Source: Tribonema minus (Eukaryota; Sar; Xanthophyceae; Tribonematales; Tribonemataceae). From it: a stretch of DNA of 64,000 bases. Where the stretch lies: positions 868,001 through 932,000 of the forward strand of contig JAFCMP010000001.1 in the NCBI GenBank assembly GCA_017506865.1. Reading direction: 5' to 3'. Positions 838-62,652 of this stretch are shown here, piece by piece (position 1 is the stretch's first letter; each line of letters opens with the position of its first letter). The notes below the pieces were generated by a model. The model was not told the DNA's origin, made no database searches, and saw only the letters and a list, made by a program, of their open reading frames with translations. The translations under genes were made by a program, and so were the position numbers.

Positions 838-3800
838 TCACGCGCGCACAAACGTCTTGCCCTGCGCCGTCTTCTTGGCCTTCTCCTCCGCCTCGGGCAC
901 CGCCCTGTTGAGCACCTGCAGCAGGCCCACGACGCGCTTGCGCATGCGCATGTGCATGTACGTCTTGGTCGCCTTGATGTGGTAGTGCAGGTAGTTGCGG
1001 AACCCCGTGAGGAGCGTCACGCATGACTCCAGGCGCCCCTCCTGCACGTGCTGCGGGAAGATGACTGCACACGGGGCAGAGTGCAACGGCGCACCGACAA
1101 TAGAGGTTTAGATGTCAGTATTCAAATGTCAGGATCTACTGCAAGCGCACGAGCGCGTCACCTATCACGGTTGCCGTTGATCCTTGTCGTCCAGAGGTAG
1201 GGGACGCGCTGTTTGCAAGTCAGATGGGGCACCGCAGCATATTCTGAAGTTTGTGTAGTCGCAGCATTTGAAGTCTGAGCGGACGCAGCTTTGAGGCTCT
1301 GGGAGGCTTGCACCAACCCCTGGCACACAGACAACTACAGAGCAGCGGCAGGCTGCGCTCGCGCTCAACGAACATAAGCCGCCACCACTCAGACGGCAGG
1401 TGAGCGGGTGCTGAAAGCGGCAATGGGCGACGGCCATACTGCGCACGGACAGCGACGCGATGATGCACACATTCGATGCAGGCTGTTGCGTCTGCAAGGC
1501 GATGACACGGTTAACTTGCGTTTGCACGCAATGACGATGGCTCATGACAAAGTCGCATCCCGGCGCCGAGACCGCTCAGCATATGACCGTTGACAGGAGC
1601 GCAGCGCCGCTGTGCGCTGCGCACCAGCGGCGCTGCGCCATTTGCCCAGCGATTGACAAGTGCTCGGCCACCGCACGCTTCCCTGTGATGATCGAGGCGA
1701 CTGCATGCACGAACGTGTTGACGTTTTGCACACGGTGTTACGAAGAACAATGACCGCGAGCACTGCTGCACCACAGCTGCTTGCCAGGCAAACGTTAGAA
1801 GCGCGGACGGCACAAGTTGCCTTCCAGCCCTTCAACAGGCAGCGGACGTCAGCGGCTTCCAGCTTGCGCATTACACGAGCCCTGCTGTGGTTCACTTCTA
1901 GGGGACGCTTTTTGAGTGCGGATTCTGCATCAGCCTCGCGTCAGATGCGCACCCCCAGCTATTCACTATGGGTAAGGGTTGGGTGTAGTCTGCATGGTCG
2001 TTGGTTTTTCTGTCATGCTTGTGCTGTTCGTTTGAACTGGTGCATTGACAATGTGGCTGCAGTAACGACTGCCTACTGGAACACAATACCTTCATGTACC
2101 ATATGGGCAGCGGTCCAGTGCATTTCAGGGAAAGGCCTCAGCAGCAGCGCCCTCTCACCTTTGCACGCAATCATGCGGGCGCGCGCATGCATGCAGAGAA
2201 GATATCCAAAGATACGTCAACTTCCACTCAAGTGCTGTGACCTGCGTTGTGACCTGCTCAACGTGTTTGTCGTTGCCTCTTGAAGCGCATCCTGCTGTAG
2301 GATCCTGCACAAACACTGGATCTACGCCAGGAGGTTTCCTCGTCATTCGATCTCTCAACTCGCAATAGACTGATACTCCTCACACTAAGCTGGCCGCTGC
2401 TGCCACTCAACGTCAGGTGCGCATGTATTGCCCTCTTCTCTTTCCGCTGTCATGGCTGACGCATCCACGCGAAAGGGCGGAGAGCACGCACGTGGCCAGA
2501 AAAGACTGAAACTTCAACAGCAGATCTTGCATGAGTGGGACACAAGATCGCACACGCACCACAGATCTCACACACACGCACGGATACCACACCGCAGGTC
2601 CCGCGAGCCGTGCTGGCTGAGTAGGAGCAGGTATCGACATGGGTTCTGTGGTGAGCTCTCCCTGACCGCCAGACTGGCTCCGGTTGGCTCTCGCAGCCAC
2701 GGGTCTCTCCGGCAAAATCACTACTTACAGTACGAGCGTGCCACTTGCAAGCAAACGACTCACTGAAGCTCAGGAAGCCCACGGGCTTGCCGCGCACGCG
2801 CGCGCTGCGCAGCTCCAGCGGCGCCTCCAGGGCAAAGTTGGTGGGCGGCGCGTTGTTGGCTGAGCGCTGCGCGTCCGCAAACTCCATGAGGAAGACCTTG
2901 CACAGCGCGCGCTCGTCCTGCTCCGCAAAGTCCAGCGCGAAGATGACCGTCACGCGGTCCGCCTGCTCGGGAGGGGGGCAAGGGGGGAAACAGGGGGGGT
3001 GATCAGGGGGAGCAGACGCGCAGCGAGCGATGTTGTTGAAGTGAGCAGAGATTGTGCCTTACCAGTCGGTGCGAGCACAAGTTCAACAGCATATTTCAAA
3101 AAGGACGTCCCTGTATGGCGCGCAGATTACACTCAGGCTGATGAGCAGACACTGAGCCCACCACCAGAGGGGTTCAGGGAAGGCACCCTAAGCAAAGACG
3201 GGGGTGGACATCAAGCAACGGCCTGCATAGAGCATTCACACTACATGACACCTGTTGCCGCGTCAGTCTGTGTGAACGGCACGGCAGTGGCTGAGCACTG
3301 CCAAAACTTGCCGTATAGAGCAGCAATGAGCGCGGCGAGCGTGGCTGCAAGCGCCGTGCACATGAGATCTGTCTTCAAGCGCCACAGCGCTCAACAGCAT
3401 CGGCTTGTGGGTGGCGCAGCTCAGCATTTCAGCGTGCTGCAGCACGAATCGCAGCTTTATTCGTTGTATCGGATGCGGTGCTTGGACACCGCGTGGCTTG
3501 CTTTTCACAGTGGCGCACCGTCTCTTGAACACGGTGGCACCGGGGCTGATTCAGGTACAAGTAAGTAGCTCACAGCTTTCACATTCCACAAGGGCCTGTC
3601 GCACATGCCTCAGGGCACGATGAAATGGCCTATGCTTTCTGCCACAGCACACGTGCCGACTCTGTATTTGCACAATGGTACACACCTGAGGCACAATGAA
3701 AACGTCCTCTGATTTCCGCCATGGCAGCGTCATCATCGGCAGCGACCCCGACTGCCCTCCCAGCAGGCTCGCAAACGCCTTGGTAAAGGGCGCCCCCAGC

Positions 3801-4602
3801 ATGTTCCTCTTCAACTCCGTCAAGCTGTCGCCAGAGAAAATGCAGTGCAGCGGAGCGTGATTGGAACGCTGGCGTTCTGCGGAGTGTTTGCGGCAACTTC
3901 ACACATATCTGTGCAAGCCGTGAGCATGCGGCAGGTCTGTCGATTGCCGCAGTAGTGCAATGTGCACAAATGCATGATGGCCCTGCATGGCTGCTTGTGT
4001 CACAGGGTCTAGTACTACTGAAGCCTCCTGACCGCAACGTTGCGGTAGTGGGTGCACAGTGCGCCACGGGTATGGATGCTGTGGTACAGTCCCGCCGCTA
4101 CGCATGTTTAAACCATCAATGCAAGCTTGCACGTCATGCTCACTTTTGCAGCAGTTGATCTGGGTGCAGCGGCGGCTTGTCCAAATCCACTACCAGGGTC
4201 AAGCTGTACCCAGACTCCGTGCTTGATGACAGCATGCCCGGGTACAGCGCGGCTATCATCTCCGCCCCTCCGTTCGCCTTTATGAAGCTCCAGGCTGCCA
4301 TGTTCACGCTGAGGGTCAGCGTGCCCAGAGACTCCCTGTTGACTGCCACCTTGTAGGTGACATCGTCGAAATCACTGACGCGGAGCTCGCAGGGCTTGCG
4401 CACTCCCTCCTTCAGGCGAGAATTTATGCAGTCCTGCAGTATGGGGTTGAAGGCGTCCAGAAATATCTGTCCCTGCGGGTGGGTGCAAAAAACAAGCAGC
4501 AAAAGTCAAGATCCAGAGTTGATGTTGCTCTGGACGCTTTTACATAGTTGCCTGAAGAACGACGCCTACCTGCACGCCGGTTGTCAGCGATCTCCGCGCC
4601 AT
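838..4602 (-). CDS. ARPC2: Arp2/3 complex subunit 2 (p34-Arc)
   Basis: This is a core subunit of the Arp2/3 complex, which nucleates branched actin filaments in the cytoplasm. Exons read on the minus strand: 4602-4570, 4472-4144, 3824-3686, 2962-2764 and 1064-838. They join in phase with GT-AG introns to give 308 residues; the animal protein has about 300. The start ATG at 4602 gives MARRSLTTGVQ before the first conserved block (IFLDAFNPILQDCI). Further family blocks are LTELKRNMLGAPFTKAF in exon 3, DRVTVIFALDF and APLELRSA in exon 4, and the very conserved end FRNYLHYHIKATKTYMHMRMR, VLNRAVPEAE and GKTF in exon 5. The start codon lies 235 bp from that of the divergent plastid gene at 4838. 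A decayed copy of the exon 3 end lies in the next intron (about 3608-3648). Confidence 0.95.
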
Positions 4603-4837
4603 CAGGCCTGCTACGCTGAGACGGGTTCGCCGGACTGACGATTAAATACTTCAACTGCATCTTGAAGTTTCAGTGAAGTTCGCGCCGCGAGCAAAACGAT
4701 TCAGCTGACGCAGAGGGAGCGAGGTTGTGTTCGTCCAGACAGCTGACATACCACAGGCAGATAGGAGCACGACACCACATTCAGCTCTGCGCTTGAAACT
4801 CCTAGTCACCTGCTCACAGGACGTGATCAACAGCAGC
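4603..4837. promoter_or_regulatory. Shared promoter between two divergent genes
   Basis: The 235 bp between the start codons of ARPC2 (minus) and the Rieske-fold gene (plus) must hold both promoters and both 5' leaders. It contains ACTTCAAC at 4648-4655 and CTTGAAGTT at 4661-4669, opposite orientations of a motif found in the other divergent promoters here. No convincing TATA box is seen apart from an AT-rich ATTAAATA at about 4641-4648. Confidence 0.6.
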
Positions 4838-7788
4838 ATGAAGCCTCAAGGATTGCTGTATGCCGCGGCGCTGCTGCAATCAAGCAGTGCTTTCATCGCA
4901 CCAGGGACCGGTGCATCGTCGCAATGGCTAGGCCAACGACAGATTAGTTGCGCAGCTACTCACGCACCAGTAAGGTGAGTTGGGTGGCAAGGGACGCACG
5001 TCTGGCAAGATCAAAAAGTGGTGGAAGTGCTGCGAGGAAACGACGTTCTTTGCTGTGCCCGTTACGTTTAGGTTAGCTCCCAGTAGCTCTGCGCATGAGG
5101 AAACATGGAGACATGATTTTGGCATAGCCTGCGTCTCACAGCCAGCTCCTGCTGTTGTTGCCCTCAGTTATGCGCACGTCTGGCAAGATCAAAAAGTGGT
5201 GGAAGTGCTGCGACGAAACGACGTTCTTTGCTGTGCCCGTTACGTTCAGGTTAGCTCCCAGTAGCTCTGCGCATGAGGAAACATGGAGACATGATTTTGG
5301 CATAGCCTGCGTCTCACAGCCAGCTCCTGCTGTTGTTGCCCTCAGTTATGCACACGACAACGGTGCCCGGGGACTGGTCATGAGGAAAGGGCGCAAGTCC
5401 CCAAGAAAAATGCTCAATGAGCTGAAGGGGCCTGGCGCAGCAAAAAGCGTGGATGCCAACGCCACATGGCTGCAGGTGGGTGTTTCACCGCAATTGCTAC
5501 TGCTTCTATGTGCTTATTGAATAATATCAATAAACTGCACAAAGCCTGTTTTGCTGCACCGTGCTAGGCTGTGCTGGTGATTAAACAAAGCGAGCTGCGC
5601 GCAGTGCGCCTGAGGCATTCTATGGCAGCGGCCAAGCTGTCCTCGTGCACAGCCAAATTGCTCACACGCACATCACTTGCATGAGCTACCTCAGTCCTTC
5701 CTTGCTTCCCCCAATGTCGTATGCCATGTGTGCTGTGATCACCGTGTCTGCACTCGATGCTGCAGCACACGCACTCCCAGACACTCGCGCGAAACTTCTG
5801 CTGACACCAGCAGACCGCGTGCGGTCTCGCAAATTCACACATCGTGCTCTACACGCTAACCCTACCTTCAACTACAACCCTAATTAACGCCACAGGTTCT
5901 CAACACCGACAAGGAGGTGGGCGCTGAGCAGGGCAGCACCAAGTTGGTCAACGGCAAGTACGCGGGGGATGATCTGTACTTCCTGCTGGTGCGCTGGGGG
6001 GGCAAGATGTACACCGTGAGCGAGTCGTGCGGGCGCTGCAAGTTCCCGCTTACGGACGCCAAGGTGAGCGCTGCCGCAGACTGAGACTCGTACACCATGA
6101 GCGAGTCGTGCGGGCGCTGCAAGTTCCCGCTCACGGACGCCAAGGTGAGCGCTGCCGCGGAGTGCGACTCGCAATCAGACTCACGGCGAGGCTGCTGTAT
6201 GAGTCGCATTGACTGCCGGCACAGAGTATTGAGTATTGTTGAGGCAGCGTCCGCAAGAAACCTTGGGACAGCAACTGTGCGGGAGCATCAAGACACCCCA
6301 AGCTGCAGAACTTTAAGCTGTAGACTGTCGCAAGACCCACCGCAATCACAGGTGTGTCACGGTGGGACGGCATGCGCACTGTGATGGAAGGAAGTCGGGC
6401 TGAGCATTGCTGGCAGCTTGCGTTTTGCCTGTTGATTCGAGTGGCGGGCGCACAGACAACAAGTCATGCGTGCACTGCGGCTTCGTGCGGTGCACCCACG
6501 GTGCCGGTGGGTGGCACAGTGAGCGCGTTGTAGATGCGGGAAACAACTTGAAGTTGCACAGTGTGTCGCTGCCAGAGCAAGCATCGCTGATACATGATCG
6601 CTGAGACATGATACGCAGAAAGACCTCTCAGGGCGCTGCAGTGGGGGAGCGGGGCGCTCACAGGGGTCAGTGTGAGCGCTGCCGCATCCGCCGGGGCCTG
6701 TGTGTCAGCAGGCAAGCTGTGCTTGTAGGTGGGCTGAGGTGCTGCGGGAACGAAGGCACCTGCAGCAATCCACCTGGACATGTGCAGCAGCATATCATAT
6801 GATGGCAGTCCGGTAGTCTGGCCGCGGGTGCGGGGGGGGGGGGGGGGGGGTGTGTTCAAGAGCATACACCCTCATGACATTACTGTTTCAATGGCTTGAT
6901 CGTGCGAGACGCGTGCTACGATGCGTCGTCGTGACACACGGCTCGCGCGCCGTCACCCTGTGCCAAGTCGAACCTTGGACGCTGACGTGAGCTGAGCTGT
7001 CATGCAATTGCTGTTGGTCCTGGGGTGGTAGATCTCTGAACAGAGTGCAGGAGCGCGATGTGCATCGTGCGCCTGCTGGGTTGCTGCGCCGCACCGCGCG
7101 CCACTGCGCGCTGTGCGTGTCACGCGTTACTCGAATACATATATGCAGAGATGAGACCGGACACTCCGCCCATGCGCCAGCGGTGACATGCACGCGGCAC
7201 AAAGGCTGCTGGTCCTGGCGCGGTGGATGGCTAACAGTGCAGGGGTGGCGAGCTGCAACCCGAGCCTGCTGGCTTGCCACGCTGCACTGCGCGCCACTGT
7301 GCGCCTCGCTTGTCACGCCGTCATCTGTCACTGAATCAGATATCAGACGAGATGCCCGGCCTGGCGCCAGTGGTGCGCCAACATGACGTCGCCCATCATA
7401 CGGTGCGGAGCGCGTTTCATGCTGCGTATGTGATCATATCACTGTACTCTACGCTGCCCCTGATGCGGATACTTTGAAGTACATAACGTTGCCCTTTGTA
7501 TCTTGCGCCCCAACTGACGCGCGCCCCCCCCCCCCCCCCCCCCCCCTCTTCATCACTCCCATTACCTGACACCAGATCACGTCCGGCGACGGCGGCGCGC
7601 CGATCATGACGTGCCCGCTGTGCGGCGCGACGTACGACGCGCGCACCGGCGAGCGCGGCGCGATCGCGAGCCAGGGCGGCCTGAAGGACGCGTTTGCGGG
7701 CATGATGGCGCAGAAGGAGCCCAAGGACCTGCGCGCGTACGAGACGCGCGTCACGCCCGACGGCGCCGTCGTCGTGCGCATGCAGTAG
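4838..7788 (+). CDS. Plastid-targeted Rieske-fold protein with four-Cys ligand set
   Basis: Exons 4838-4974, 5346-5475, 5896-6063 and 7576-7788 join in phase to give 215 residues. The N-terminus (MKPQGLLYAAALLQSSSAFIAPG) is a signal peptide with the Ala-Phe cleavage motif of heterokont plastid proteins. After a basic linker come the fold segments VLNTDKEVGAEQGSTKLV, DDLYFLLVRWGGKMYTVSE and the two ligand loops: SCGRCKFPLTDAK at the end of exon 3 and MTCPLCGATYDARTGE in exon 4. A normal Rieske [2Fe-2S] site has C-x-H and C-x-x-H; here the loops read C-x-x-C and C-x-x-C. It may bind iron-sulfur in a ferredoxin-like way, bind zinc, or be a degenerate thylakoid Rieske-like protein (the plant PSB33 type is one such). 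Intron 1 and the exon 3 end carry tandem duplications, listed separately. Confidence 0.82.
4995..5351 (+). repeat. 178-bp tandem duplication inside intron 1, with duplicated 3' splice site
   Basis: Two nearly identical units with a period of 178 bp begin at the ACGTCTGGC at about 4998 and 5176. Each unit ends in the same pyrimidine-rich 3' splice site (TGTTGTTGCCCTCAG, at 5167 and 5345). The distal copy is used in the model because it keeps the frame into exon 2. Using the proximal site would add an in-frame segment that stops within the second copy. Confidence 0.9.
6003..6155 (+). repeat. Tandem copy of the exon 3 end and its donor (81-bp period)
   Basis: The last about 60 bp of exon 3, encoding the first Cys loop (SESCGRCKFPLTDAK) plus the donor AAG|GTGAGCG, is repeated 81 bp downstream (about 6093-6155). 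Eighty-one bp is a whole number of codons, but a TGA lies between the copies, so read-through cannot give two loops. Either donor could be spliced only if the intervening stop were avoided; the first donor (6063/6064) is chosen. Confidence 0.9.
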
Positions 7789-9935: not shown

Positions 9936-12900
9936 TTACAGATGCATGATCATGTTGTGCTGCCGCCGCAGCAGCTCGGCGAGCTCCGCGCGCGCGCCGG
10001 CGACGCGCCGCAGCAGCGCTGCCTCAACGCTCAGCAGCACCGCCTCGCTGCTGTCGCCGCCGCCGTCGTTCAGCAGCGCGTCGAAGACGCCGTCCCACAC
10101 CTCAGCGCGCCAGTAGCGGCGGCAGCGGCGCGTAGGGCGCCAGCGCACGCTATCCGCCGCCGCTGCTGCGCCGCCGCCGCCTCGTCGAGCGCCGCTGCCG
10201 CTGCCGCCGCCGCCGCCAGTGCCGCCGCCGCTGCTGCCGCGCGGAGCGCCGACGTGCGCCTGCGCGCTCAGCGGCTCGCCGAACAGCAGGAAGTGCAGCG
10301 TCGACGCGAGCGCGCACAGGTCGAGCTGGTAGCGCCACGGCGCGCGCGCCGCGAGCTCGGGGCAGCCGAAGCCGCTCGCCGCGTTCCCCGCGCCGCACGC
10401 AAAGCGCTGCGCGGGTGCGTAGTTGCGCAGGTCGATGGCGCGGCCAAAGTCGATGAGCGTCGCGGCGTGCGCCTCCGGCGGCAGCGGCGCGGCAGCAGCG
10501 GCGCCGCTGCCGCCGCCGTCGCGCATCGTCAGCAGCCAGTTGTCGGGCTGGATGTCAAGCGCCAGCGCAGGTAAAGCAGGGCAAGCGCGGTAGATTTTAC
10601 AGTAGTTAGGTTAGGGGCTGGGCACTGCCTCAGGGTTGGAGCTCATCAGTGTGCGGCACTGCAGACAGCCGGGCAGCAGTACAAGCGCAGCGCCAGCAGC
10701 AGCAATAGCGACTTCACGGGAGCAGCACCTTGATGTCGCAGTGCAGTATGCCGGCGCCGTGCGTCGCGCGCACGAACCTCGCCATCTCCGCGCCATAGTG
10801 CGCCGCGACGAGCTCCGGGACGGTGCCGCCAGCGCGGCGGTGCTCGACCTGCGACGTCGCCAGGAGGGGGGCGGAGAACGGGTGGGGGAGCGGGGGTATG
10901 TATGCTGTTAGTAATAGTGGTGGGGAGCGGCACCGGGCGTGCGACGGTCCGGGGCACGCGGCAGTGTGCACTTCCTGAGTGGTGCCTGACGTTGCGGTCT
11001 TCGCCGAGCCATGCGTATGCTGAACACGCGCTCTGACACAAGTATTGCGAAACACGCTGCAAAAGCAGCGGGGCGCTGCTGAGCATTGCTGATGCTTGGT
11101 CTGCTGCGCAAGGATGACACTTTATGTAAGAAGAGCAGGTGTTTGGCTGGGGGGGGGGGGGGGGGGGGGTGATGCAACACCATTATTGTACACTGAAAGT
11201 TAGGGAACATGTGCCACAGAAATTGTGTAGCAGTCGCATCGTCGGCAGGAGCACTGCCGCACGCCGCTGCCTCTTGCATACCTACGTATTTCCGCCGTTA
11301 ACGACCACAAACATACGCAAGTGCTGGGCGACAAGAGCCGGACGAACCAGACCATTGGAGCTTCGTCTCTGAACCCGATGTTTGGCGGGGGAGAGGGGCG
11401 CGAGGCTTCTGAGACAGGCGGTGCTGCCACACACACATACCTACATACCCTCACCCACCGCGGCCACTCACCACGAGGTCGTGCAGCGTCCCGTACTGAG
11501 GGGTGGGGGGGGCTACTAGGAAAGTGGGGGCTGCCACACTCACAAACCTACGTACCATCGCCCCTCCAACAACCGCGCAGCCACTCACCACGAGGTCGTG
11601 CAGCGTCCCGTACCGCCCCATGCGCATCGGCATCGCGCAGCCGTCCGAGTACCTGAACAGCTGCTGCGGGGTCACCAGCACCACGCCGCCCCCTGCACCC
11701 CCCTCACCCCCCTCCCCCATCTCCGGCGCGGCGCGCGCGAGCGGCGGCGCCGCCGCGAGGCGCGCCGCGAGCTGCTGCCCTATGTAGAACTCCCACGGCA
11801 GCGACGCGAGCGGCCGCTCCACCTGCGCAGGCGCGAGCGATCGTTGACGGCAACAGCGGTTTCTTGCTGGATTTGTAACTTCAGCGCACGTGTGGGTAGG
11901 GACGGGGCCAGAGGTGGCGGCGACGAGGGCGGAAGTGCTGTGTGAGCGTGAGCGTAAAGCAACTGCCTGGGATGCGGCACGCGCTCCCATGCTCGCACAG
12001 CTGCGGCGCACGAGCTGCTGCCCTGCGTAGAACTCCCACGGAAGCGACGCGAGCGGCCGCTCCACCTGCGCAGGAGGAAACCGCCGTTGCCAACTCAATT
12101 GTTTTCTTGAAACTACCGTCTCAGCACATCCTGTGGTAGGGACGAGGACGGTCAGCTTGTTGGGGACTGGCGCGCGGGTGAGCGCTGCTGCCTGGACTGC
12201 GGCAGTGTGCTCCCACGCTCGCGCAGCTGCGGCGCGCAGCGAATACACCCCGACACTATACCGTTGTAGCGACAGGTTGAGCGCTGCTGCTCTGCGCGGC
12301 ACCCCCGCTGCGGCGACAACGGCCCAGGCGCGAGCGGTTGCGTGCGTGCAAGAGAGGCCGGCTAGGGGGGTGGGGTGGGGTTAAGGCCCCCATCGCCTGT
12401 GCAGCAGCATTTATTGGAGCAGCGCCGAAGGCTAGCGTGCCAGTCGCTCGCGCCAAGTGCGGCTTTCTGCGCCTGTGCCCCTGTTGCGCCAATGCCAGCG
12501 TCTCACTGCTGCTCAAGACAAAGTCGGCACGCAAGTCGGGTGACGTGGGTGGGACTTGCATGTGGCACAGGTGCTGGCGGATTTCAGTTGTGAGCACCGG
12601 GGCACAAGAAACTGTGCGCTAACGGCGCGTGGGCGGTCGTTGGCGTGCGGCCTGCGGGGGCGGCGGCTGTTGCGCGTGTGCCATGTTATATCATGAAGCA
12701 GCGAGACACAGACGTGCGTGCACCGCCTTTGGCACAGCACATCAGACACCTCAAACTTCCGAGTACAACCGCAGACCGATCTGGAGTACTGTACAAACGC
12801 GTAAAAAGTACACACTTCACCTTGACGGCGCACGGCTGGTCGTTCGCGCGCAGCCGGCACCGGTACACCGCCGCGTACGCGCCCGTCCCGAGCATGCCCT

Positions 12901-15133: not shown

Positions 15134-18100
15134 TCACATGGCCTGCTGCAGCGCGCCGTCCGCGCCGCCGCCGCCGTCGTGCGCCGCGCCGCCGTCGGCG
15201 CCGCTGCCGCCGCCGCCGGGCGCGCCGCCTGGCGCCATGCACGAGCGCGCGACGCTCTCAAACACGCGCTCGAGCTCCGGCGCGCAGTGCGTGAAGCGGT
15301 GCGACCAAAAGTCGTAGCGCGGGTTCTTGATGAGCTCGATGAACGTGATGAGCAGGCCCCACGGGTGCGGGCGGTGGACGATGAGGCGCTCGAGGAGGAT
15401 GCGCGTGATCTGCTCGCGCACGTCCTCCGCGCCCGCCTCCGCGAAGAGGTACAGGAGGACGCATGAGAAGTAGTGCGTGTGGTTGTTGGGGTAGCGCAGC
15501 TGGTTGGCGACGGCGTTAAGGAAGAAGTAGCGCGCCTCCGCGTCGAGCGCCGCCGCGAGGTGCTGGAACACGTCCATCGGCGCGCTGTGCGTGATGTTCG
15601 CCGCCTTGCTCTGCATCTGCGCGATCGCCTGCGGAAGAGGAGGATTGGGGGAGGGGGACACAGCACTGGAGCGTTGGCAGCTGTTCCGCATGCGCTGCAT
15701 GGGAAGTTCGACATGGCTGGGCGACGGATGCGGCGTGCAACTCTGCGGTGAGCGCTGCTGCGAGGTGTTGGGGGACACCAACGACGCACCAGCGCCTGCA
15801 CGTTGTGCTGCATACACGCAAGACTTCTAGAAGTACTTCAGAATCCATTTGCAGCGCATCCTCTAGCACAGACAGCCACAGACACGCGCTGTCCTCACGC
15901 CGCTGCCCCACGCATCACGCGCGCACCTGCGACCCTACGTACACCACCAGCGCGCTCTCAGCGCCTGCACGTTGTGCTGCAAACTTATATGTATGCCCTT
16001 CACACAAAGTACATGCTTCAAAGTAATTCATAAAGCCACAAGGACAACATCCCGACGGCGCTGCCTGATATCAACGCAAACCGCATGTGCGCACCTGCGA
16101 CCCCACGTACACCACCAGCGCGCTCAGCGCCTGCACGTTGTGCTGCGAGCCCGTGCGCGCGGCGTCCACCGCCGGCAGCCGCAGGCGCGCCGGCAGCTCC
16201 ACCAGGAACTGCGCAGGGCCGCGCGTCTGCAGGTACTTGTCCAGGTCCGCGCTGATGCCGCTGCTCACGAGCGCCGCCGTGTAGTTGCTCAGGATGCGCG
16301 GCGGCTGGCTGATCTCGGGCAGGAGGTCGACCTGGGGGGTACGGGGGGGCGAGCAAGGGGGAGGGAGGGGGGGGGGGGGGGGGGGGGGGCAAGTGAGATT
16401 GGGGCCTGTGGGGTGCGGGCAATGCAGGTGGCTGAGATCATTGGAAGAAGGAGGGTAAGCGGGGTGAACGAACAGATGTCACGGCAGTGCTGTCATCGTG
16501 CGCAGAGTGCGATGGCGGACGTTGTCAGCGCAGCAGCAGACAGCAGACGGCAGTCAATGGAAAGTCACCCACACCAGATTGGGGCAAAACACATCCTCAC
16601 ACTTGGCTGAACATGACCGAAGGGGCAACGTGCGAGCCATCAAAAGTGCAGCATGACCGTTGTGTGAACGAGCATTGTCTGAGGAGAGGAGCGGACAGAT
16701 TCTGAGGCGTGTCGAACGCGGCACGAATGGGAAATGGATACATAGCTGACTACTATCAAAACTGCACGAGCCCGTGATGCACACAAAATAGAAGTAAGTG
16801 AACAGGTGCGTCACCTTGAGGTTGAACCTGAACGGCTCCGACTGCGTCAGCTACTGCACAAATGCGCTGGGCTGGAAAACTGCAGCCATGCACACCACTT
16901 TCATGGATTAAAGTCACGTAAAGTAACGAGGCGTGAGGCGCAGACACCGTGATGCACGCAGAGGATTTGCGGGGCCAAACTTCACCTTGAGGTTGGGCGT
17001 GAACGGGTCCGGCAGGCGCATCGACCGCGGGAACGCGCTCAGCACGAGGTTGCGCAGCTGTATGCACGACGGCGGTATCACGTCGCACAGCGAGAAGTGG
17101 TACTCGCACAGGAACTCGGGGAAGTCGTGGAGGAGGACGAGCAGGACGCGCAGCATGCCGCGGTACAGCGTGCGCACCGCGCCGCCGAGCGCCGCGCGGC
17201 GCAGGCGCGGCTCCATGAACGACAGGAGGTCGACGAGGAGGCGGTGCATGAGCATCCAGCCCTTCTGCTGGCGCGCGAGCAGCAGCGTCGGCATGAACAT
17301 GCGGTGCGAGACGAGCTCCAGCCACGCGAACGCGAACGCGGGCGCCGTCGCGGGCTGCAGCACGTGGAACGCGCTCGCGAACGCCGCGAGGACCTGCGGC
17401 GCGCAGCGGCGGCGGCAGCGGCGGCGGCGGCGGACGGGAGGGAGGAGCGCTTAGAGCAGCGCAGAGCGGTGAGGGGGTGTACCGCGGTTGGGACCAGGGT
17501 GAGGGCGATGGGCAGTGACGCATGGTGGGAGGCGAAGGATTGCGCGGCGTTCATGGAGGGTGGTGGCGACGCAGTCGACAGGAGGCGGCAGTGCACATAT
17601 GGAACCACAGGCGGCTCGAGGAATATGCTGGTGTGCCGTACTGACGTGGCTGGGGGTGGGAGAACGCTCGGCACACACCACGCACGTGAGGTGCTGCCGG
17701 CACCGCTGTGCTGTGCACATGACAGCGATGTGATCCACCGCACTGCACACACACAGCAACCGCCTCACCAGCCTGAGCGCAGACATTGCTGTTTACAGGC
17801 GTGGCGCAAGCATCCAAACGCGTAGCGGCGCCGCCCACCCAACATGCGCTCCGTGGGCGCTGCATCTACCTTACCCACACGCAAACCCTAACCCTAATAC
17901 TGAGACAGCGCAGGCGCGCACGCACCTGCAGGTTGCTGCTGTCGAGCACGCGGTCCGGCGCGTTGAAGTCCTGCAGCAGGCTCAGCAGGAGGCGGAAGTA
18001 CGGGCGCTGGTCGAACGGCGGCGCGCCGCCGCCGCCCGCCGCGGCGGCGCCCTTGCGCGCGTCGAGGTCCTGCAGCAGCACGCGCACGAGCGTGCTCAGG

Positions 18101-45400: not shown

Positions 45401-48400
45401 TTATTAGAAGTTTGATTCTGAGTTCAAGTGCCCCTTGTCTGGTGGATTGTATGCTCGGAATCGAGCAGACTCACCACATGCCCCACAAATACGCCCTTCG
45501 TGCAGCATGCTATCATGCCGAGGATTGCTCAAGACGTATCCATGGTTGCCAAATACGCCCCAAACACGCTTGTCTTCGGTTGCCAAATGCGCCCCAAATA
45601 CGCCGTCCATGGTTGCCAAACACGCCCCAAATACGCCGTCTTCGTGTGGCCGAATACGTTTTCGTGCAACCCTATATACGAGGGTGGGTATATGAGGATA
45701 GGTATACATATGAGGTATATGATTGAGGGTAGGTATATAAGGGTAGGTATATGAGGGTAGGTATACGAGGATAGGTACATGAGGAAAGGCACGATGAGAG
45801 TAGGCATATGAGGGTATGTAGGTGTACACGGAACTACATGAGGGTAAGTGTATGAGGTTAGGTATATGAGCATGATGGGGGGCGGAGCGCAGCGGGCGCC
45901 ATCGCACGGCTTGCGAGAGCGCACTTGCATGCTCTTGCACTGACGCACAGCAGTGGGATGCGCGATGATTCAACCATGCGCTCATGCGCACCCGCAGAGG
46001 AGTAGGGTTAAGGTCACGATCAGCGTTTAAGCGAGGCGCTGGCGACGGAGGACACGCTGACGTCGCGCACCACGCACGACGCCCGCAGGCCAGGGCTAGG
46101 GTTAGGGCAACGGCTGCGGAGTCCACATCCCGGGCATTGGGCTTGCAGCGACGGGCGGAGCGCAGCAGGTGTCGCCTCGCGGCACAGGTACATTACAGCG
46201 GGGGGATCAGGTCCACTGAGCGCTGTCACCTGGCATGGCTGAGCTCTGCAGCACAAAGTGTCTGTGCGCAGCTCGTACCGAGACTGCGGCGTCCGCGGCG
46301 CAGCGTTAAAGGGGCAGCGCGCGGGGCGAGGCGCGGCGGGCGGGCGTCATGCACGGCTCAGCTCATCATGGGGGGGGGGGTGCGCTGAGACTGGACGCAT
46401 CCGGGGCCGCCAGTGCATGTTGCGCAGTTAGCTCATGGCATGTTGAGCTGTGAGCGCTTCGCTTAGCCCCCCCCCCCCACCCCTGCCCCCCGCCCCCCCC
46501 GTGCGGCAACTCAGATCCTACAGCGAGCAGTTGCCCGAGGTACGCAACTTCAAGCTCATACATACACGCCTCGCGTCCCATGATGCGCGCGCCGCGCTCC
46601 GGGCGCGTCACGCACGCGTCGTGGCGCGCCGTGCTCTGCGTGTACGTAACTTCAAGTACGCGCATTCGGTATACAAGTACGTACATACCTCACGGCCCAT
46701 GATGCGCGCGCCGCGCTCCAGGCACGTCACGCGCGAGCCCAGCCGCGCCATGCTCTGCGCGAGCTCCAGCCCAATGGGGCCCGCGCCGACGACGCACAGC
46801 CGCGGCGGCAGCTCCTCCAGGTTGAAGAAGTTGGCGTTGCTCAGGTAAGGCACTCCGCCGCTGCCGCCGCCGCCGCCGCTGCCGCCGCCGCCGCGCAGCG
46901 CCGGCGGCACCGCCGCGCTGCCGCCCGTCGCGATCATGGCCTTGCGGAAGCGCAGCACGCGGTCGCCGGCGGCGCCGCCGCTGACGATTACGGAGTGCGC
47001 CCCGGAGAACGTCGCCTGGCCGAGGAAGACGTGCTCGCAGAAGTCGCGCGCGTAGCGCGCGACGCCGTCGGCCGCGGAGATCTCCGCGCGTATCGCGCGC
47101 ATACGCTCTGCGCAAGACGCGGCGAGGGGGGGGGGGGAGGGGGTTGAGGTGAGCCCCTCGGACTCTAATGCACATTTGACACGTGATGACATGTGACACG
47201 AGGTAGGTTGGGGCCAGGGGGGGGGGAGCGGACTGAGTCCCACAGACTCCTCTGATGTTGTTACAATGCACTGTCAGGCATCCCGAGCGACAGAGGAGAC
47301 CACGTGCATGAGAGGTTTTTCCATTCAGTCAAACTTCCATCAAGCAGCACAGGCAGGTACTTCCCGCTTGCAGCACTGCTCATCCTGACCGCAAAAGTGC
47401 AAAAGTGTCTGAGTTTGCTTCCTACTCACCCATGATGGCCGGGAAGTCGACTTCGACGGCGTCGGCGCGGAGCCTGACGCCGAACGGCGCGGCGGTGCGC
47501 ACGTCGTGGACGCGGCGCGCGCACGCGATGAGCGCCTTGGACGGGACGCAGCCCACGTTGAGGCAGTCGCCGCCCATGTAGTGACGCTCCACGAGCGCGC
47601 ACCGCATGCCCAGCCCCTGCGGCAGCGGAGGCAGGGGGGGGCGGGTGGGGGGGGAGGGGGGGGTGCTCGTGGTGCGAAGATGTCAACAGATTACACTCAA
47701 AATGTGGCAGCGGTGACGGCAGTGAGGCAGGTGCTGCGCATGCCCAGCCCCTGCGGCGGTGGGGGAGGCGCACCGGGGGGGGGGGGGGTGCTGGTGGTGC
47801 GCAGCTGTCAACAGATGGCATTCGAATGCGGTGGCGGGACGGAGGGGGGAGCAGACCTCGGTGCGAAGGACTCTGCGGATGGCACTCAGCTGTGGCGGTG
47901 GTGACGGCGGGATGCGGCAATGCTGCGCGTGTGCCGGCGCGTGGCGCGGCGCAGGTGATGGAAGCACCGCCGGCGCGGTGATCGTTCTCAATTGCGCATG
48001 TCTGACACCGGCGAAGACGATACGAGCATGTACTACTGCGCTAAAGGGTGACGCCGCGCCAGCGTAAACTTCATGGCTGAGCACTGCAGACGGTGGTAGA
48101 GGCGGCGACGTCGTGGCCGCACGCCGCCCCATATTTGTACTGAAACATGACTTTGGAGCAAGCGACGAACCGGAGACCGCGGCGCCGCGAGCGGCCGTGC
48201 AAAGGCACGAGCGCATGCGGCAGCGCCGCCGCACAGAAACTTCAACTTGCATGCAAACTTCAACTTTTGATGCACCTTGGCCATGATCACGGACAGCAGG
48301 CCGCTGACGCCGGCGCCGATCACCACCAAGTCGTAGCAGTCCGACGGCGCAGGGTTGACGTAGTCTGGCGGGTGAACATTGTCGACCAGCGCCTTGTTGA

Positions 48401-53359: not shown

Positions 53360-53394
53360 GTTTTGTGTCTGAGCGCTGCTGCTTGGTGCGCGTG

Positions 53395-53485
53395 AGGCTG
53401 AGCGTTGCTGCCGCGCGCGCTTGGCGGCGCGAGCGCGTACGAGTACGGCGCGGCGCGCTACTTTGCGGAGGCGCACGCGTGAGTT
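53395..53485 (+). repeat. Copy of the CRAL-TRIO gene's last coding segment
   Basis: The segment coding ALGGASAYEYDAARYFAEAHA plus GTGAGTT (53290-53365) is repeated about 117 bp downstream (to 53485) with one change (YGAARYF). Because exon-edge copies elsewhere carry splice sites, the repeat hints that GTGAGTT may be a real donor rather than just overlapping the stop. Confidence 0.9.
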
Positions 53486-55836: not shown

Positions 55837-58108
55837 TCACGCGCCCTCTGTTGGCGCTGGCGCCGGCGGCGCCGCGCCCGCACGCGCCACCGCCCCGTAG
55901 TCGCCTCTCTGCCCCTGAGCGCTGCTGACGCTGCGGCGCCGCCTCCATGCGAGGACCGCTGCCGCGGCCGCAGCCGCAGCTGCCGCCGCAGCGGCGGCGA
56001 CTGCGGCATCGCTCGGCCAGCCGCCGCTGCTGCCGCTGCTGCTGCTGCCGCTGCTGCTGCCGCGCGTTGCCGCCAGCGAACCCTTCTTCCCCTTCTTGGA
56101 GTGCTTCTTGGGCTTCTTGCCGTTCTTGGAGGTGTCCAGGGGGGCGACCGCGTGGGGGGGGGGTGTGGCGTTCCCGTACTTTGCCACGTAATCAGGCGAA
56201 CCCGGCCCTGTGTACTTCCACGGCAGCGCGTTGATCTCGTAGAGCATGGAGCCAAGGGCCCAGCCGACCTGCGCACGGGATCAAGGGCTGAGGGTAAGTG
56301 GCAAGGCGGTGCCGGTGGACTCAATTCAAAGACTGCAGTGTGAGCTGAAGGTTTGTAGCAGCACATGCTCGCACGGCACAGAGGGGGGGGGAGAGAGAGA
56401 GAGCATGCTTGATGAAATAGCTCTGACGTCGGCGACCGATCGCCGATGATGATCAGTGCTAACTTCAACTTAGAGTTAGGCCTAACTTGGGGTGAGGCCT
56501 CGCCCCAGGCGAGGCCTACCCCTGAGCTCTCTGGGATCTGTCACCAGTGCCTGATGTGTGAGGAGTGTGGAGAGGCTCATGCATCATTGGGGGCTTCAGA
56601 AATTGGTGTTTCGCAAGCTAAGAATGCATAATGAGCTGAGAGCTGCTGCTGCAATCAAAGTGTGGGTTTGCTTCAGCGTCATATCCACCTTGAGAATAGA
56701 CACCAGAGAAGCTGATGGCCGCGGATCTTCTCTGTAGAACACATATCGCCAAACACCTCCATGGATTGACCACACTGCGGTGCATGTACATCTGCTGATT
56801 GAAGGATGTTCGTTGCAGTATCGTGGCGTTGCCGATGTTGAGCTGGCTACTCCTGTGGGCAGACGGCCACAGCTACTGTCAAGAACTGCCGTACGCGTGT
56901 ATATATGTATATACATACATATATATGAAAACGAATCAGAAGATCGTAGAGCTCTAGGTGACCAGGGATGGTTAGCCGCAAGTGCCTTCCACCAGTGACC
57001 GTGGTCGCCGCTGCTGCAGCAATTGGCCACGAGTCAAACAATACCACCGTATCCACCAGTCAACATGACTTTCGTGTGCAAGCTTTTAGCGTTCGAGGCA
57101 TGGGTGTTCAGTATTGGAAAGGTCTCACGTGTTCGGTAGGCCAGCTCCAGCCGGCAGCCCAACACAGAGGTCAGCATATATATTTATACTTCGAACATTG
57201 AAACCTCGTTTCAAGCGCTAGTAGCATTTTCCGGTGTGCGTCGCCACACCTTGATTCCCTCGCTGCTTGTGCGCATGGCGACAGTAGGGTGATGGTCCAG
57301 CTGCTGCGTCAGTGCACTCATGGTCCACACATAGCTCGCCTTGATGCACGGCGCGCAGTGTGAGGGGGTCAATCTGTACTTCAAGCAATCTCAGACCATT
57401 GACACATCTATAAGTTACCAAGTAATGAGAGGTCTCGCCATCACTGGCATCTGGCATGTGCGCGCCTCGCCCCTAACCTGAGTCTAATTGCGCGCCGAGC
57501 CGCATCGACCTTGTGCCCGTTGAGACTCTTGACGAAGTGGACCGTCGTGTTCAGGCTGAAACAGACTGTGAAGTACTTCGTATCATCGAAAATATACATA
57601 CAGTACCCGCAGACTTCACATCAGCTCGCACTTGTACGTCAAGTACTCTCAACCCACTCCGCGCACCTAGCCCTAGCCCTAAACCTAGCCCTGATTGCAC
57701 GGCAAGCCGCACCGACCTTGTACCCGTTGTAGTTCTTGACGAAGTGGACCGTCGTGTTCAGGCTGAACCCGTACCCCTCAATCAGCAGCGTGATGCAGTA
57801 CGTGGCCAGGAAGCACGTCGCGGCGATCTCGTCCCCCTTTAGGGGCTTCCCCGCCAGCCTGTTGCGCGCCTCGAGCGCGGACTGGTCCAGGGAACAGAGA
57901 ACGCGCGTCTGGTCCAGGAACGCGCCGAGCGCGATCCCCTCGGGCAGCTGCATGAGCGTCCACGCACGGTAGTAGCCGGAGAACGCGTAGAACTGGCGCG
58001 AGTCGTCGAGCGGTATCGCCGGCTGGTACACGCCCGCGATGGAGCACTGCTGCGAGTGCGCGTAGTTGCACCACGTGTTGAGCGCCTTGTGCAGCAGCGG
58101 CAGGACCT

Positions 58109-58142
<34 letters not shown>

Positions 58143-61100
58143 GCAGTGCTCAGAGTCTCGTCACTCAGAGGCGATATCTGGCGGTGCTCGGTACAGAGGT
58201 GGGTTGGGGTTAAGATTAAACTAACCCTCGCCCAATTGGGGTTAAAGCTTACCCTGACTTTAAGCTGCACGTGCGCTGGCACCTGCCGCCCTCTACCGTG
58301 GCTTCTGGCAGGTAGCATTCTTGCCCTGCTGAGGCGTAAGCGCACGCATGCACTTGATGAAACGCGCGCCGTGCAGGCCTTTCAGGTATAGAAGTCAAGC
58401 GAGGTGCTGCAGTGCCTGCCCTGCTGGCAGCGATGACATCCGTCATTGTAAGCACTCTTGAGGCACCGGTCGGCCGCGAGGACGGCAGCGAGGCGGCACC
58501 CCGCACGAAGCGGGCGCAGCGTTGAGTAACGATGCGGCAGGCGCGCAGACTTTGACGTGAGCGCGGCGCGCATCAGAACTGCCGCCGTCCCGGGCGGCGC
58601 AGCTGTCACACACACACATACACACACACCGATGATATGACGACAGACCATGGCAGGCTGCGCGCACGAACGGCGGTGCGGCTATGACGTAATCGTCACC
58701 TGAGCGTGGCACGCGTCAAAGCCGCTGCCGCCCTGCGTGGCGGTGATGTTGTACTCGACGCCGTCCGCCGCCGTGAAGGCCAGCGCGGCGCCCGCGGGCA
58801 GGCACGCGTCCGTTACAACGGGTGTAATTGCCATCTCCAGCGCCGGCGCGCTGCCGAGCGCGCCGCCTTCGGCAGCAGCGCCGCGCTCCGCGAACACGGC
58901 GTCTAGTTCGCCGGCAGCGCCGCCGCCGTGGCCGCGTGCTCTTCGCGCTAATCGCCGCGCAGCTCCGGGTGCCTGGCGGGCGATGGAGCTGGCTCCGGGA
59001 GATGCGCCCGCGACGGCGGCAGCATCAGCGGTGCCGCTGCTGCTGCTGCGCGCGTAGCGCAGGCGCGTGACCTCATCCATCGGGTGCGCCGGCACGTAGG
59101 CCAGCTCGCCGGAGGCGGCGCGCAGCCGCACCGTCGCCGGCGGCTGCTGCGCCAGGTGACGCTCCGCAGACGCTGAGCGCTGACCAAACGCTGCTGACGC
59201 TGCTGCTGCTGCTGCTGCTGCCGCTGCTGCTTCGGAGGCAGTGCCCAGGCTTGAGGCACCGTGCGCCGCTGCCGCTGCTGCTGCTGCTGCTGCTGCTTCA
59301 GGGGCAGTGCTCAGGCTTGAGGCACCGTGCGCTGCTGCTGCTGCTTCGGCAGCAGCGCTCAGTCGCAGAGCGTCGTGCGCTGCGAGGGCGCGCGTGAGCG
59401 GCGGCAGGCCGTTGGCGGCGTCGACGCGGCACTGGTGCATGCGCAGGCGCGTGGACGCCTCGCCAAAGTACAGGAACGAGTGCGTGTAGACATTCCAGTG
59501 CTTCTGGGACCCGATCTGCAGCAGCGGCAGCACAAAAAGGGGGGGGGGGGGGGGGCAGGTGTGTCGTCCATGCTCAGTAGCACTGCTGCGGAACCGCTGT
59601 TTGGAAAAGTACCTGTCGCTACCAGGTTACAAGTGGCGGGGAAGCGATGTGTGGAATTGTCGTCGTCTATGCTCAACGGTACTGCTGCTGAACTGGTGTT
59701 CGACTTTGCTACCACTTCCAGTCTTGCCATGTGGTGAGTCTACCGCAGCGGGGTGCATATTGAATACTTTAACATCAAGTAGGCATCCCCGCATTGCCGT
59801 TGTTTTCCTCCCGACCACAGAGCTCCGCACTCCACAGTGTCTCTGTACAACAGCTCCATCAACCAGTCAACGTTCGTGAGCCTGAATCATCATGACCACA
59901 TGCCAACTCAAAGCGCGCACCGAACGTGATGCCCGCATCGCGCACTGCACAGTCATGAACACGCATCATTCTATTCACACGCTGCCCTGACGCGCACGGC
60001 GGGCGCGGCGATCCGCAAACCGCACCTGCAGCTTGCTCGTGATGTCCTGGTCCTGGCGGAAGAAGGCGATTTGCGTGGACGCCCCGCCTACTGAACACTT
60101 GTATACATGCATCATCCTATTCACACGCACCTGCAACTTGAATAAGTTGCTCATGATGTCCTGGTCCTGGCGGAAGAACGCGATTTGCGTGGACGCCCCC
60201 CCCATGTCCAGCGCGCCGACAGATACATTCGTGGTACTTCCAAGTACATGTTCATGTAGCAGCTTGCACGAAGGAGTAGCACCGCACACACGCTCACCTG
60301 CAGCTTGAACAAGTTGCTCATGATGTCCTGGTCCTGGCGGAAGAATGCGATCTGCGTGGACGCCCCGCCCATGTCCAGCGCCCCCACCGTAACATTCGAG
60401 TTCGCCGTGCCCGCGCCCCCCGAGTCCAGCAGCAGGTGCCCCCTCAGGAAGTTGATGGCGGCCCACGCGTAGATGGACTCCTCCTCGCCGGAGATCACGC
60501 GCGCGTACTCGAATTCGAAGTAGAAGGGGCAGTCGTCGCCGTACAGGTACTGCCTGCGGCGGCAGCGCGGCGCAGCGCACGGCAGGGAGTTCATTCATCT
60601 CAAAGGCGAGTGGGAACGAAAAGGTGGCAAGGCGGTTGCGCAAGCGGATAGCGCCTGCGAGGCAGACGATTGACCCTGCCGCAAAGCAGAAGGGGCAGTC
60701 GTCGCTGTAGAGGTAGAGGTACTGCCTGCGGCGGCGGCGCGGCGGACGGCGCGAACTCAATTTTATAGCGTGCATGGGATCCGTGCGGTGGTGAGGTGGC
60801 GGCTATGGATACATTGATAGCATGCAAAGGCGTTTACGGGTGTGAGGGCGGACAAAGGCTCCGCGGCAAAACTGTAAGTCCAAACCCTTGTCCTAGCCCT
60901 GACTTGAGGACCGCATGTCGGATTGTGTGTTCCTCGGGGTCAGGGGTTTGGGTCAAGCATGGTGGTCATCGCGGCGGCGGCACAACCACAGACGGGCAGG
61001 CGTTGACGAGTGCGCATGTGGTAGGTATGCAAGACTGGAAGATTGTCGCCGATGCCCACATTCGCATTTACCGGCGAGCAGCGTGGCGATCATCCCTGAT

Positions 61101-62652
61101 GTATACCATGGCCCCCACACGAGCCTTTGTCCGCTCACCCCTCTAACAACGGGTAGGCCCAGCCTTGGCCCGATCCCCAAACCCTTACCGTACCTGGAAT
61201 TAGGGTTAGGGCTAGGCTAACCCCAACGCAGCCACGCCGCTCGGCGCTCATGTGATGATTCACGTCATGATTAGGGTTAGGCGAACCCTAACGCGGCCAC
61301 ACGCGCCGCTCGGCGCTCACCTGATGGCCGTCATGATGGCGTCGCGCTGCGCGAAGGGCAGCTGGCGCATGCCGCCCGTCGCCTTGAGAAAGATGGGGAA
61401 CTTCCAGAAGTCGCCCTTCTTGTCCGCGAGTATGTCGATCGCAAAGTCGATGAGCGGCCCGAGGTGCTCCCCGATGTCCTCGGGATGGTCTGCGTAGGAC
61501 GATATGCCGGGGCTGAAGCGCCCCGTCCACGCGTTGCTCGACTCCGGGAAGGAGATCGGCGGCGGCAGCGTGTCGAAGAGGCGCGGCGACCACGTGTACA
61601 CGTGCATCCTGCTGCCGCCGCTGCGAGAGGGCGGCAGGAGAGTGCAGTCAGGCGGCGGCGTCAGCTGCGCTCGCGCTGCCTGCGCTGCGGTGACGGGGTG
61701 TGCGAGCGAAGGCCGGCTCTGCGCAAGACTAAAGTGCTGCGCATGACGAGTGCGGCATGATGTACACGTGATTTCTGCTGCCACCGCTGCGCGCGGCAAG
61801 AGCGCATGATGCAGACTGCACGGTCATGCGCTTGTTTTGAGATATGTACTGTGGCTCAGGGGGAACGCGCCTTGCAATCTGGCTTCGAGTAGCCACCAGG
61901 TATGTACAAATGACTGTGCTATTGTAGCATCTGCCATGAAAAGTTGATGCACTCCATCATGGTTTGGACAACAGGCGTCAGCTGCGCTTGCGCGGCCAGC
62001 GCTGCCGCGGTGACGGACGGTTATGCGAGCTAAGGCCGGCTCTGCGCAAGACTGAAGTGCCGTGCATTACGAGTGCGGCATGATGTGGTCACCGCTTTTA
62101 GCCGCGTGCGAAGCCACCGCCAAGTGTGGAAAGTGTGTTTTTCAAGTTGAGCGTGCATTTGCATGTACACAACCCAAAGTGCTGACCAATCTCGCTGTGA
62201 TACAATCCTGAGCTATGTAGCACCTTTGCCAGCTGCTCCTACAAGTGTCATGCAATCATTCGACGACACCTGCAACGAAAGCACATGTTGTTGACCGAAG
62301 CCACATGATGCGCACACCGACGCCCGCGGTCAGTGCTGTGACAGGCGTGCACACTTAGGATACTGATCTTCTGCAAGCGAAACATGGAGTCTGACATTTT
62401 GCCACATTTGCTTGGCCACGATCTGCCACGCGAAAGGCCTCACTGCAATTAGAGCAGCTCAATACGCGCGTACCTTCCAGCATCTATGATCATCCCATGT
62501 GCGATGGGCAGATAGCTGATATCTATGATTCCCAGGATCCTATCCGGTTGCAGAAGAGCTGCAACAACAGCAAGTGCTGCTCTCCACCCACAGCTGCTTC
62601 TCCGCCCTCTTCTGCATCTGGGAGCAGCATAAGCTGCTGCTATCGCCACCAT
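55837..62652 (-). CDS. GDA1/CD39 family nucleoside phosphatase (apyrase)
   Basis: Exons on the minus strand: 62652-62474, 61620-61321, 60553-60298, 59515-58700, 58106-57717 and 56268-55837, 790 residues, all phases consistent. This family hydrolyses nucleoside di- and triphosphates in the secretory lumen or outside the cell. An N-terminal hydrophobic segment (AALAVVAALLQ) may anchor it. The apyrase conserved regions follow in order: ACR1 IIDAGSGGSRMHVYTW across intron 1, ACR2 LKATGGMRQL, ACR3 VISGEEESIYAWAAINFL with the catalytic Glu, ACR4 VGALDMGGASTQIAF, and ACR5 VGWALG. Between ACR4 and ACR5 is an inserted Ala-rich repeat (about residues 285-345). A C-terminal run of Ala then VLAWRRRR could be a second membrane helix, giving the two-anchor topology of CD39. 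At least six decoy exon-edge copies lie in its introns. Confidence 0.93.
57488..57580 (-). repeat. Decoy copy of apyrase exon 58106-57717 end
   Basis: The exon end coding LNTTVHFVKNYNGYK with donor AAG|GTCGGT (57710-57770) is repeated about 206 bp downstream in the transcript. The copy retains AAG|GTCGAT and the string GACGAAGTGGACCGTCGTGT. Confidence 0.9.
60023..60213 (-). repeat. Two decoy copies of apyrase exon 60553-60298 end
   Basis: The segment coding the end of ACR4 through FFRQDQDIMSNLFKLQ, with its donor, appears at the true site (60297-60395), at 60129-60213 and at 60023-60092. GATGTCCTGGTCCTGGCGGA starts at 60322, 60155 and 60041. All three end in CAG|GTG, so three candidate donors lie in tandem. 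Confidence 0.93.
60686..60745 (-). repeat. Decoy copy of the same exon's start
   Basis: GAAGGGGCAGTCGTCG..GTA(G)AGGTA...CTGCCTGCGGCGGC repeats the true acceptor region at 60524-60570 (coding QYLYGDDCPF), about 170 bp upstream in the transcript. A six-base insertion (GAGGTA) lengthens the copy, and the CCGCAG acceptor is intact. Confidence 0.9.
61200..61340 (-). repeat. Decoy copy of apyrase exon 61620-61321 end with telomere-like flank
   Basis: The exon end ATCAG with donor GTGAGCGCCGAGCGG (61305-61325) is echoed at about 61243-61262, where the donor GT has become AT. Both copies sit next to the same CCCTAA/TTAGGG block, so the duplicated unit of about 65-70 bp includes that flank. Confidence 0.8.
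61665..62085 (-). repeat. Tandem copies around the apyrase exon 2 acceptor
   Basis: At 61750-61800 a decayed copy of the exon 2 start (TGTACACGTG..TGCTGCC.CCGCTGCG) follows the true one at 61595-61625. A larger unit, CAGCTGCGCT.GCG...GGCCGGCTCTGCGCAAGACT, occurs at 61665-61760 and again at 61976-62085, a period of about 311 bp. Confidence 0.8.

Follow-up and report, generated by a model that had tools for sequence, protein, structure and literature searches.

Local tandem copies of exon edges, with their splice sites, in introns of Tribonema minus

Internal gene duplication, that is, tandem duplication of exonic and intronic segments inside genes, was reportedly treated by Gao and Lynch in 2009 (PNAS) with an emphasis on duplicated or newly created introns. 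Internal tandem duplication and its part in intron birth are established (PMC3443670, PMC4974935, PMC2891723). In the tandem genomic duplication model of intron gain (Rogers 1989; Hellsten 2011), the doubling of an exonic AGGT creates a new intron (PMC3443670, PMC4974935), and an 83 bp duplication within an intron is mentioned for potato (PMC4974935). In Drosophila, novel intron positions have been described in which an exon was duplicated in tandem and one copy then became an intron, in a few proto-splice cases (PMC2891723), and introners are dispersed mobile copies that occupy many introns of a protist genome (PMC9860276). Here we analyse a 64-kb stretch of the genome of Tribonema minus (contig JAFCMP010000001.1, positions 868,001 to 932,000; hereafter the window), in which a first-pass annotation had noted that exon edges recur, together with their splice sites, in the adjacent introns. 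These splice-edge copies were confirmed as genuine and extend beyond the window.

The copies resemble internal gene duplications in being tandem intragenic segments with both exon and intron sequence, but what they usually leave here is an old intron that has grown longer and carries dead copies of splice sites, in about one third of the sampled introns. With intron gain of the Rogers type they share the tandem duplication of a segment carrying splice signals; here, however, an existing junction was doubled, and at the edges checked against homologous proteins the copies are unused and no new intron arose. A new intron running from the donor of the first copy to the acceptor of the second was not found at any of these 11 checked edges: the copies there are enclosed in an intron whose ends lie at other sites. 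The Drosophila cases, by contrast, do not concern existing junctions at genome scale (PMC2891723). Many introns of a protist genome are also affected by introners, whereas the copies found here are local and gene-unique (PMC9860276). Intronic minisatellites too are arrays of head-to-tail units, but here there are mostly one to three copies of units of 75-243 bp (six extra copies at one RNR1 donor), and the arrays are mutually unrelated. The literature searched, which included few subscription papers, contained no report of junction-spanning duplication as a genome-wide feature of introns, nor any in Tribonema; duplication across junctions as a routine trait of a genome, with the decoys left standing, was likewise not found in it.

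The sample comprised 304 kb of T. minus DNA, namely the window plus 24 separate 10-kb stretches, and the whole genome (158 Mb) was used for searches with five exon edges. Local direct repeats were scanned and compared with the exons of a gene finder trained on this sequence, which predicted 40 genes with 279 exons and 239 introns, with donors of the type AG/GTGAGC or GTGCGT and acceptors ending in GCAG; it labels many decoys as exons and fuses neighbouring genes. Introns shorter than 60 or longer than 4000 bp, genes scoring below 50 and exons scoring below 15 were excluded from the intron count. Among the remaining 109 introns between well-scored predicted exons, 39 contained a copy, on the same strand, of the edge of a neighbouring exon (donor copies in 30, acceptor copies in 15). 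Counted by edges of well-scored exons, 62 of 244 had a copy (38 of 119 donors and 24 of 125 acceptors), 11 of the 62 being ambiguous. Of the gene fragments with a tested intron, 17 of 31 showed such copies, as did the window and 11 of the 19 ten-kb stretches in which an intron was tested, in agreement with the first-pass view of a recurrent, local process of graded age.

That annotation had proposed a comparison of introns with their own exons and with others, and the outcome was clear-cut. The 50 exon bases at the junction matched their own intron at 28 of 109 donors and 15 of 109 acceptors, and other introns in none of 470 comparisons; a reverse-strand control gave one match each. Exon bases 101-150 from the edge never matched their own intron (0/80 and 0/77), and the far 400 bases of long introns matched the edge in 1 and 0 of 38. 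At a score of at least 22, the 304 kb contained 580 local pairs, compared with none in one block-shuffle of the same sequence. Chance is therefore excluded, both by the shuffle and by the absence of matches in other introns.

In the window, 18 exon-edge rows had an intron-side copy, five of which belong to one NOT1 array (edges 20300-20579). They represent 14 separate loci, at 6063, 11588, 11822, 16094, 16985, 20579 (the array), 31493, 32019, 44909, 46688, 47616, 53355, 57716 and 60297, with two candidates of weaker grade at 40681 and 61320. The copies read as follows (coordinates, strand, source and lag):

6090..6171 (+), Rieske-like gene (Pfam Rieske_2, E 1.3e-4, under the curated cut-off): copy of 6009-6090, over donor 6063; lag 81, 94% identical, head-to-tail
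11459..11488 (-), gene model beside the BUB1 exon: copy of 11576-11605, over donor 11588; lag 117, 97%; gapped homology extends into the intron
12012..12074 (-), acceptor copy of 11769-11831, over acceptor 11822; lag 243, 95%
15921..15980 (-), NOT1: copy of 16089-16146, over donor 16094; lag 168, 97%
16811..16840 (-), NOT1 gene model: copy of 16982-17011, over donor 16985; lag 171, 87%; intron half not clearly above shuffles
20437..20514 (-), NOT1 array, copy nearest the exon: of 20575-20652 (donor 20579); lag 138, 94%
20290..20393 (-), NOT1 array, second copy: of 20575-20674; lag 285, 92%
20153..20239 (-), NOT1 array, third copy: of 20550-20636; lag 397, 82%
31554..31608 (+), TRAF/SAM gene (Pfam zf-TRAF and SAM matches): copy of 31440-31494, over donor 31493; lag 114, 87%
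31749..31802 (+), TRAF/SAM gene, further copy: of 31588-31641; lag 161, 83%
32145..32197 (+), donor copy of 31981-32033, over donor 32019; lag 164, 89%; intron half not above shuffles
44724..44779 (-), oxidoreductase: copy of 44885-44940, over donor 44909; lag 161, 84%
46559..46640 (-), oxidoreductase: copy of 46678-46759, over donor 46688; lag 119, 83%
47737..47757 (-), oxidoreductase: acceptor copy of 47603-47623, over acceptor 47616; lag 134, 100% over 21 bases
53407..53485 (+), CRAL-TRIO gene: copy of 53284-53362, at a reading-frame end (donor or stop codon at 53355); lag 123, 96%
57465..57560 (-), apyrase gene model: copy of 57672-57767, over donor 57716; lag 207, 82%
60122..60231 (-), apyrase: copy of 60289-60398, over donor 60297; lag 167, 89%
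60033..60088 (-), apyrase, second copy: of 60314-60369; lag 281, 95%

The nearest copies lie 81-243 bp from their edge, so that the earlier count of more than fifteen loci at 66-240 bp agrees well with the 14 loci and two weaker candidates. The genes that the annotation had named are present in the window: ARPC2, a Rieske-like gene, BUB1, NOT1, a TRAF/SAM gene, an oxidoreductase that resembles mercuric reductase, CRAL-TRIO and an apyrase of the GDA1/CD39 family. As a list of genes with copies it held only in part. No edge copy was found in ARPC2 (842-3802; Pfam P34-Arc), where five of the 14 best pairs in window positions 1-5000 begin before 4300 (scores 11-14) and none lies on an exon edge. 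In the CRAL-TRIO gene, the supposed donor at 53355 is possibly a stop codon: a TGA within the unit 53284-53485 can be read as the stop codon or as the first bases of a donor, and the public protein P0001 ends there in ...YFAEAHA. This duplication may thus span the end of the gene rather than a splice site. The copies had also been described as always in the same orientation and on the intron side. The former was borne out, with 640 direct and 22 inverted local pairs in all sequence classes together, although the search for inverted pairs used an 11-base seed and was somewhat less sensitive. The latter applied to 81 of 93 rows; of the 12 exceptions, eight are in two arrays whose copies the gene finder had called exons.

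The duplicated unit is not confined to the exon. At the edges, copies are head-to-tail with lags of 75-243 bp. In ungapped alignments the exon parts are long and well conserved and the intron parts often fade within 6-15 bases, a view that suggested copying of the exon alone, an idea abandoned after gapped alignment. Leaving out the 11 ambiguous edges (also omitted from the divergence, decoy and codon tests) reduced the 62 edges to 51, and leaving out two more with a half shorter than 15 bp reduced them to 49; the intron halves of 42 of these 49 were more alike than at least 95 of 100 shuffles, and those of 35 more than all 100. Two or three of ten example alignments of intron halves were unconvincing. 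Between genes, the median match length was 0.94 of the lag, and some young pairs are exactly head-to-tail, such as 6009/6090 and 50260/50326. The youngest pairs of the window lie at 4995-5356 and 6009-6171. Since gapped intron halves are alike and intergenic matches nearly fill the lag, the unit is a contiguous tandem block over the junction, with direct, adjoining copies as in internal tandem duplication. In tandem exon duplication (mutually exclusive exons) a whole coding exon would be doubled together with both splice sites; most copies here carry a single edge, and at 11 of the 62 edges a copy overlaps a further predicted exon of good score. A nucleosome-length unit of fixed size, near 165 bp, was ruled out by the broad spread of lags (70-210 bp). 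Microhomology at the ends could be assessed in a handful of young pairs outside a poly-glutamine tract of locus L029, with overlaps of -6 to +6 bases, too few for a judgement. That tract belongs to a predicted exon (L029 3669-4176); its run of well over 100 glutamine residues, encoded by an uninterrupted CAG-type repeat, greatly exceeds in length the poly-glutamine runs of NOT1 in the window.

Because the gene models have no RNA basis, key junctions were compared with homologous proteins. This covered 11 edges with copies: four donors and two acceptors of RNR1, two donors and one acceptor of the oxidoreductase, one donor of the apyrase and one of NOT1. All of them use the first donor or the last acceptor, and the homologous proteins leave no room for the copies. 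The first intron of RNR1 (locus L015) contains six copies of the exon end; without the copies, residues 2-373 align as one stretch to residues 19-390 of yeast RNR1, whereas with the copies read as exons the comparison with human RNR1 falls into five broken stretches. Similarly, a homologous protein aligns through the oxidoreductase junctions at 44909 and 46688 without the copies, the protein alignment crosses the apyrase junction at 60297, and the Not1 Pfam match crosses that at 16094.

The copies are local throughout. Searched against the 158 Mb, the five edges yielded 13 local copies and distant matches at only five places, all at apyrase paralogues (contigs C548, C93 and C518). NOT1 donor 16094 and donor 32019 each have a single copy in the genome, the local one, and NOT1 donor 20579 has its three local copies and none elsewhere. 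In the apyrase paralogue on C518 the donor is placed differently, and a local copy of its own lies around it; since the donor lies elsewhere and some bases are common only to the C518 exon and its copy, that duplication is a separate one. The same is probably true of the paralogue on C548, which has a local copy, and no local copy was seen on C93.

Tandem pairs are not a peculiarity of exon edges. Their density was 0.36 per kb in intergenic DNA, 0.45 wholly within introns and 0.073 in exons, about five-fold lower in exons than between genes. Pairs of the main non-coding classes and of the edge classes had a median identity of 0.88-0.90. After collapsing, 36 of 100 events spanned an edge (24 donors, 12 acceptors). 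Uniform placement, given intron lengths and lags, predicts 24.8 per 100 if all copies persist equally and 35.9 if edge copies remain detectable twice as long, the latter being an assumption, made because the exon side is constrained, and calculated together with the observed counts. Targeting of exon edges is therefore not required.

Once inside the intron, the decoys decay in a nearly neutral manner. The GT was retained in 44 of 51 decoy donors (neutral expectation 43.1 ± 2.5) and the AG in 20 of 21 decoy acceptors (17.5 ± 1.6), after exclusion of 4 of 55 donor and 5 of 26 acceptor copies that were out of register and with several copies of one edge each counted, so that the counts are not independent. 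Mean donor scores were 4.59 for decoys, 4.20 ± 0.37 under neutrality and 5.85 for real sites, and the corresponding acceptor scores were 4.35, 3.33 ± 0.57 and 4.84. Selection against decoys was thus not seen in GT and AG retention or in the scores. In 28 of 51 donors and 14 of 21 acceptors the score of the decoy even equalled or exceeded that of the real site. As strong decoys persist without sign of removal, motif strength cannot select the real site, and the choice may instead be set by the order of transcription or by exon context.

We consider it very probable that these edge copies result from frequent head-to-tail tandem duplication in non-coding DNA, filtered by selection. Units mostly of about 70-210 bp would be duplicated in non-coding DNA generally, by replication slippage, template switching or the repair of staggered breaks. 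A unit lying over a donor would yield the order exon, donor, intron start, copy of the exon end, copy of the donor, and intron; splicing from the first donor would leave the mRNA unchanged, and the extra copy would remain intronic and decay. A unit over an acceptor would give the mirror image, with the last acceptor used. Units within exons, or the use of an inner site, would alter the protein and mostly be lost. Copies would consequently be found on the intron side because use of the first donor and last acceptor keeps the protein intact. Selection would act here as a filter on duplications, with the splice site chosen by position or exon context and not by strength, and with repeated rounds the decoy splice sites would accumulate into arrays and the intron would become longer.

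Several observations sit uneasily with this explanation. Seven of the 49 edges had no detectable homology between intron halves, and the identity of the first 40 bases of the intron in gapped alignments was 0.75 at 33 donors and 0.69 at 18 acceptors (random baseline 0.54-0.56), compared with 0.88 and 0.84 for the exon part, so that the intron halves look to have diverged beyond double the copy rate, a modest and unexplained discrepancy. Acceptor decoys were retained slightly above neutrality. Introns with a donor copy only numbered 24 and those with an acceptor copy only nine, with six having both (exact p 0.0135); by events the difference was 24 to 12 (p 0.065), and stricter exon sets pointed the same way (16 against 7 of 57, and 6 against 1 of 29). 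This tentative excess of donors is not predicted by a symmetric duplication model and may be partly technical, because acceptors are harder to place. The synonymous fraction of 221 exon-copy differences was 0.52, where 0.45 is expected if the exons drift at synonymous sites as well and 0.29 if the copies alone change; over the 51 exon-copy pairs the excess over 0.45 is about two standard errors, modest and unexplained. Differences at codon positions 1, 2 and 3 were 0.071, 0.059 and 0.160. Moreover, the exons are our own gene-finder predictions and not RNA-derived. Some of these features would suit a process linked to splicing or transcription, such as RNA-templated repair, that copies exon edges specifically into introns: the rapid fading of the intron part in ungapped alignments, the seven edges without clear intron homology and the more frequent involvement of donors. 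However, such targeted copying appears improbable, given the homologous intron halves of the other 42 edges, the absence of matches to exon interiors, the edge share equal to the uniform expectation and the abundance of similar pairs in intergenic DNA.

The slight synonymous excess, decoy scores that do not fall under the neutral expectation and the 11 edges with a copy on a further well-scored predicted exon, some of which may be true duplicated exons, could also point to functional copies, kept by selection as additional exons or as splice sites of alternative or regulated use. Homologous proteins nevertheless continue across the 11 checked edges and leave no space for copies. The copies also contain nonsynonymous differences and small indels, and their GT and AG retention is near neutral, so that we give this possibility little credence. 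An assembly artefact, with mis-joined or unmerged haplotypes, might be suspected from the few pairs that are 97-98% alike, but most pairs are well diverged, and copies with indels at lags of 75-243 bp inside single introns make this explanation very unlikely. Repeated splice-site modules in many introns might suggest that the splice sites are carried by mobile elements of the introner kind or by a family of dispersed repeats. This was refuted for the five searched edges, whose matches lie only beside their own exon or at a paralogous exon; as the repeated sequence is gene-specific and includes the gene's own codons, a mobile origin is extremely unlikely in general.

Tandem duplication with a selective filter, which we retain, also bears on how these introns grew. 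The first-pass annotation had seen exon edges as such being copied and had drawn a link to the birth of introns from duplicated AG/GT segments. Neither was upheld, as the unit continues into the intron and similar duplications occur between genes and within introns, and at the homology-checked edges existing introns were lengthened without a new one arising; its description as intron growth is a fair one. Introns with edge copies had a median length of 834 bases (39 introns) and those without any copy 448 (61 introns), a comparison that is partly circular. The copies had been held to make up a large share of intron DNA, whereas those detected account for 11.5% of intron bases. A larger hidden pool of decayed copies was not apparent, as the excess of local matches vanished against a composition control (net slightly negative), although this control over-corrects and removes true duplications too. 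In a bolder form, which we put forward only as a tentative and somewhat doubtful proposal, the introns of this lineage would lengthen chiefly by tandem duplication, and the spliceosome would take the first-transcribed donor and the acceptor of the intact exon regardless of strength; doubled acceptors, of which the first AG after the branch point is favoured, would be more harmful and more often removed, leaving the excess of donors.

Other repeats were also noted. Telomere-like AACCCT / TTAGGG repeats with partial units are present in genes and introns (window 26922-26963 and the introns near 31493 and 44724-44779), and the oxidoreductase gene model contains two adjoining short-unit minisatellites (33-34 and 14 bp; window 45539-45870). 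Arrays with open-frame copies called as exons were seen at 4683-5248 of locus L020 and at 20301-20804 of the window, and some of these may be true duplicated exons.

Duplicated splice sites are usually studied singly, in engineered constructs. If the sampled rate holds, T. minus would contain very many natural pairs of site and decoy 75-243 bp apart in which the used site can be known by homology, and its genome would serve, through RNA-seq, as a natural test of whether strength, transcription order or exon context decides between near-identical splice sites. The many decoys called as exons by the gene finder call for caution in gene prediction. The duplications also offer a simple and datable route for intron growth and, should the first donor and the acceptor of the intact exon indeed be the sites taken, they would constitute a very large genome-wide set of competitions between near-identical splice sites.

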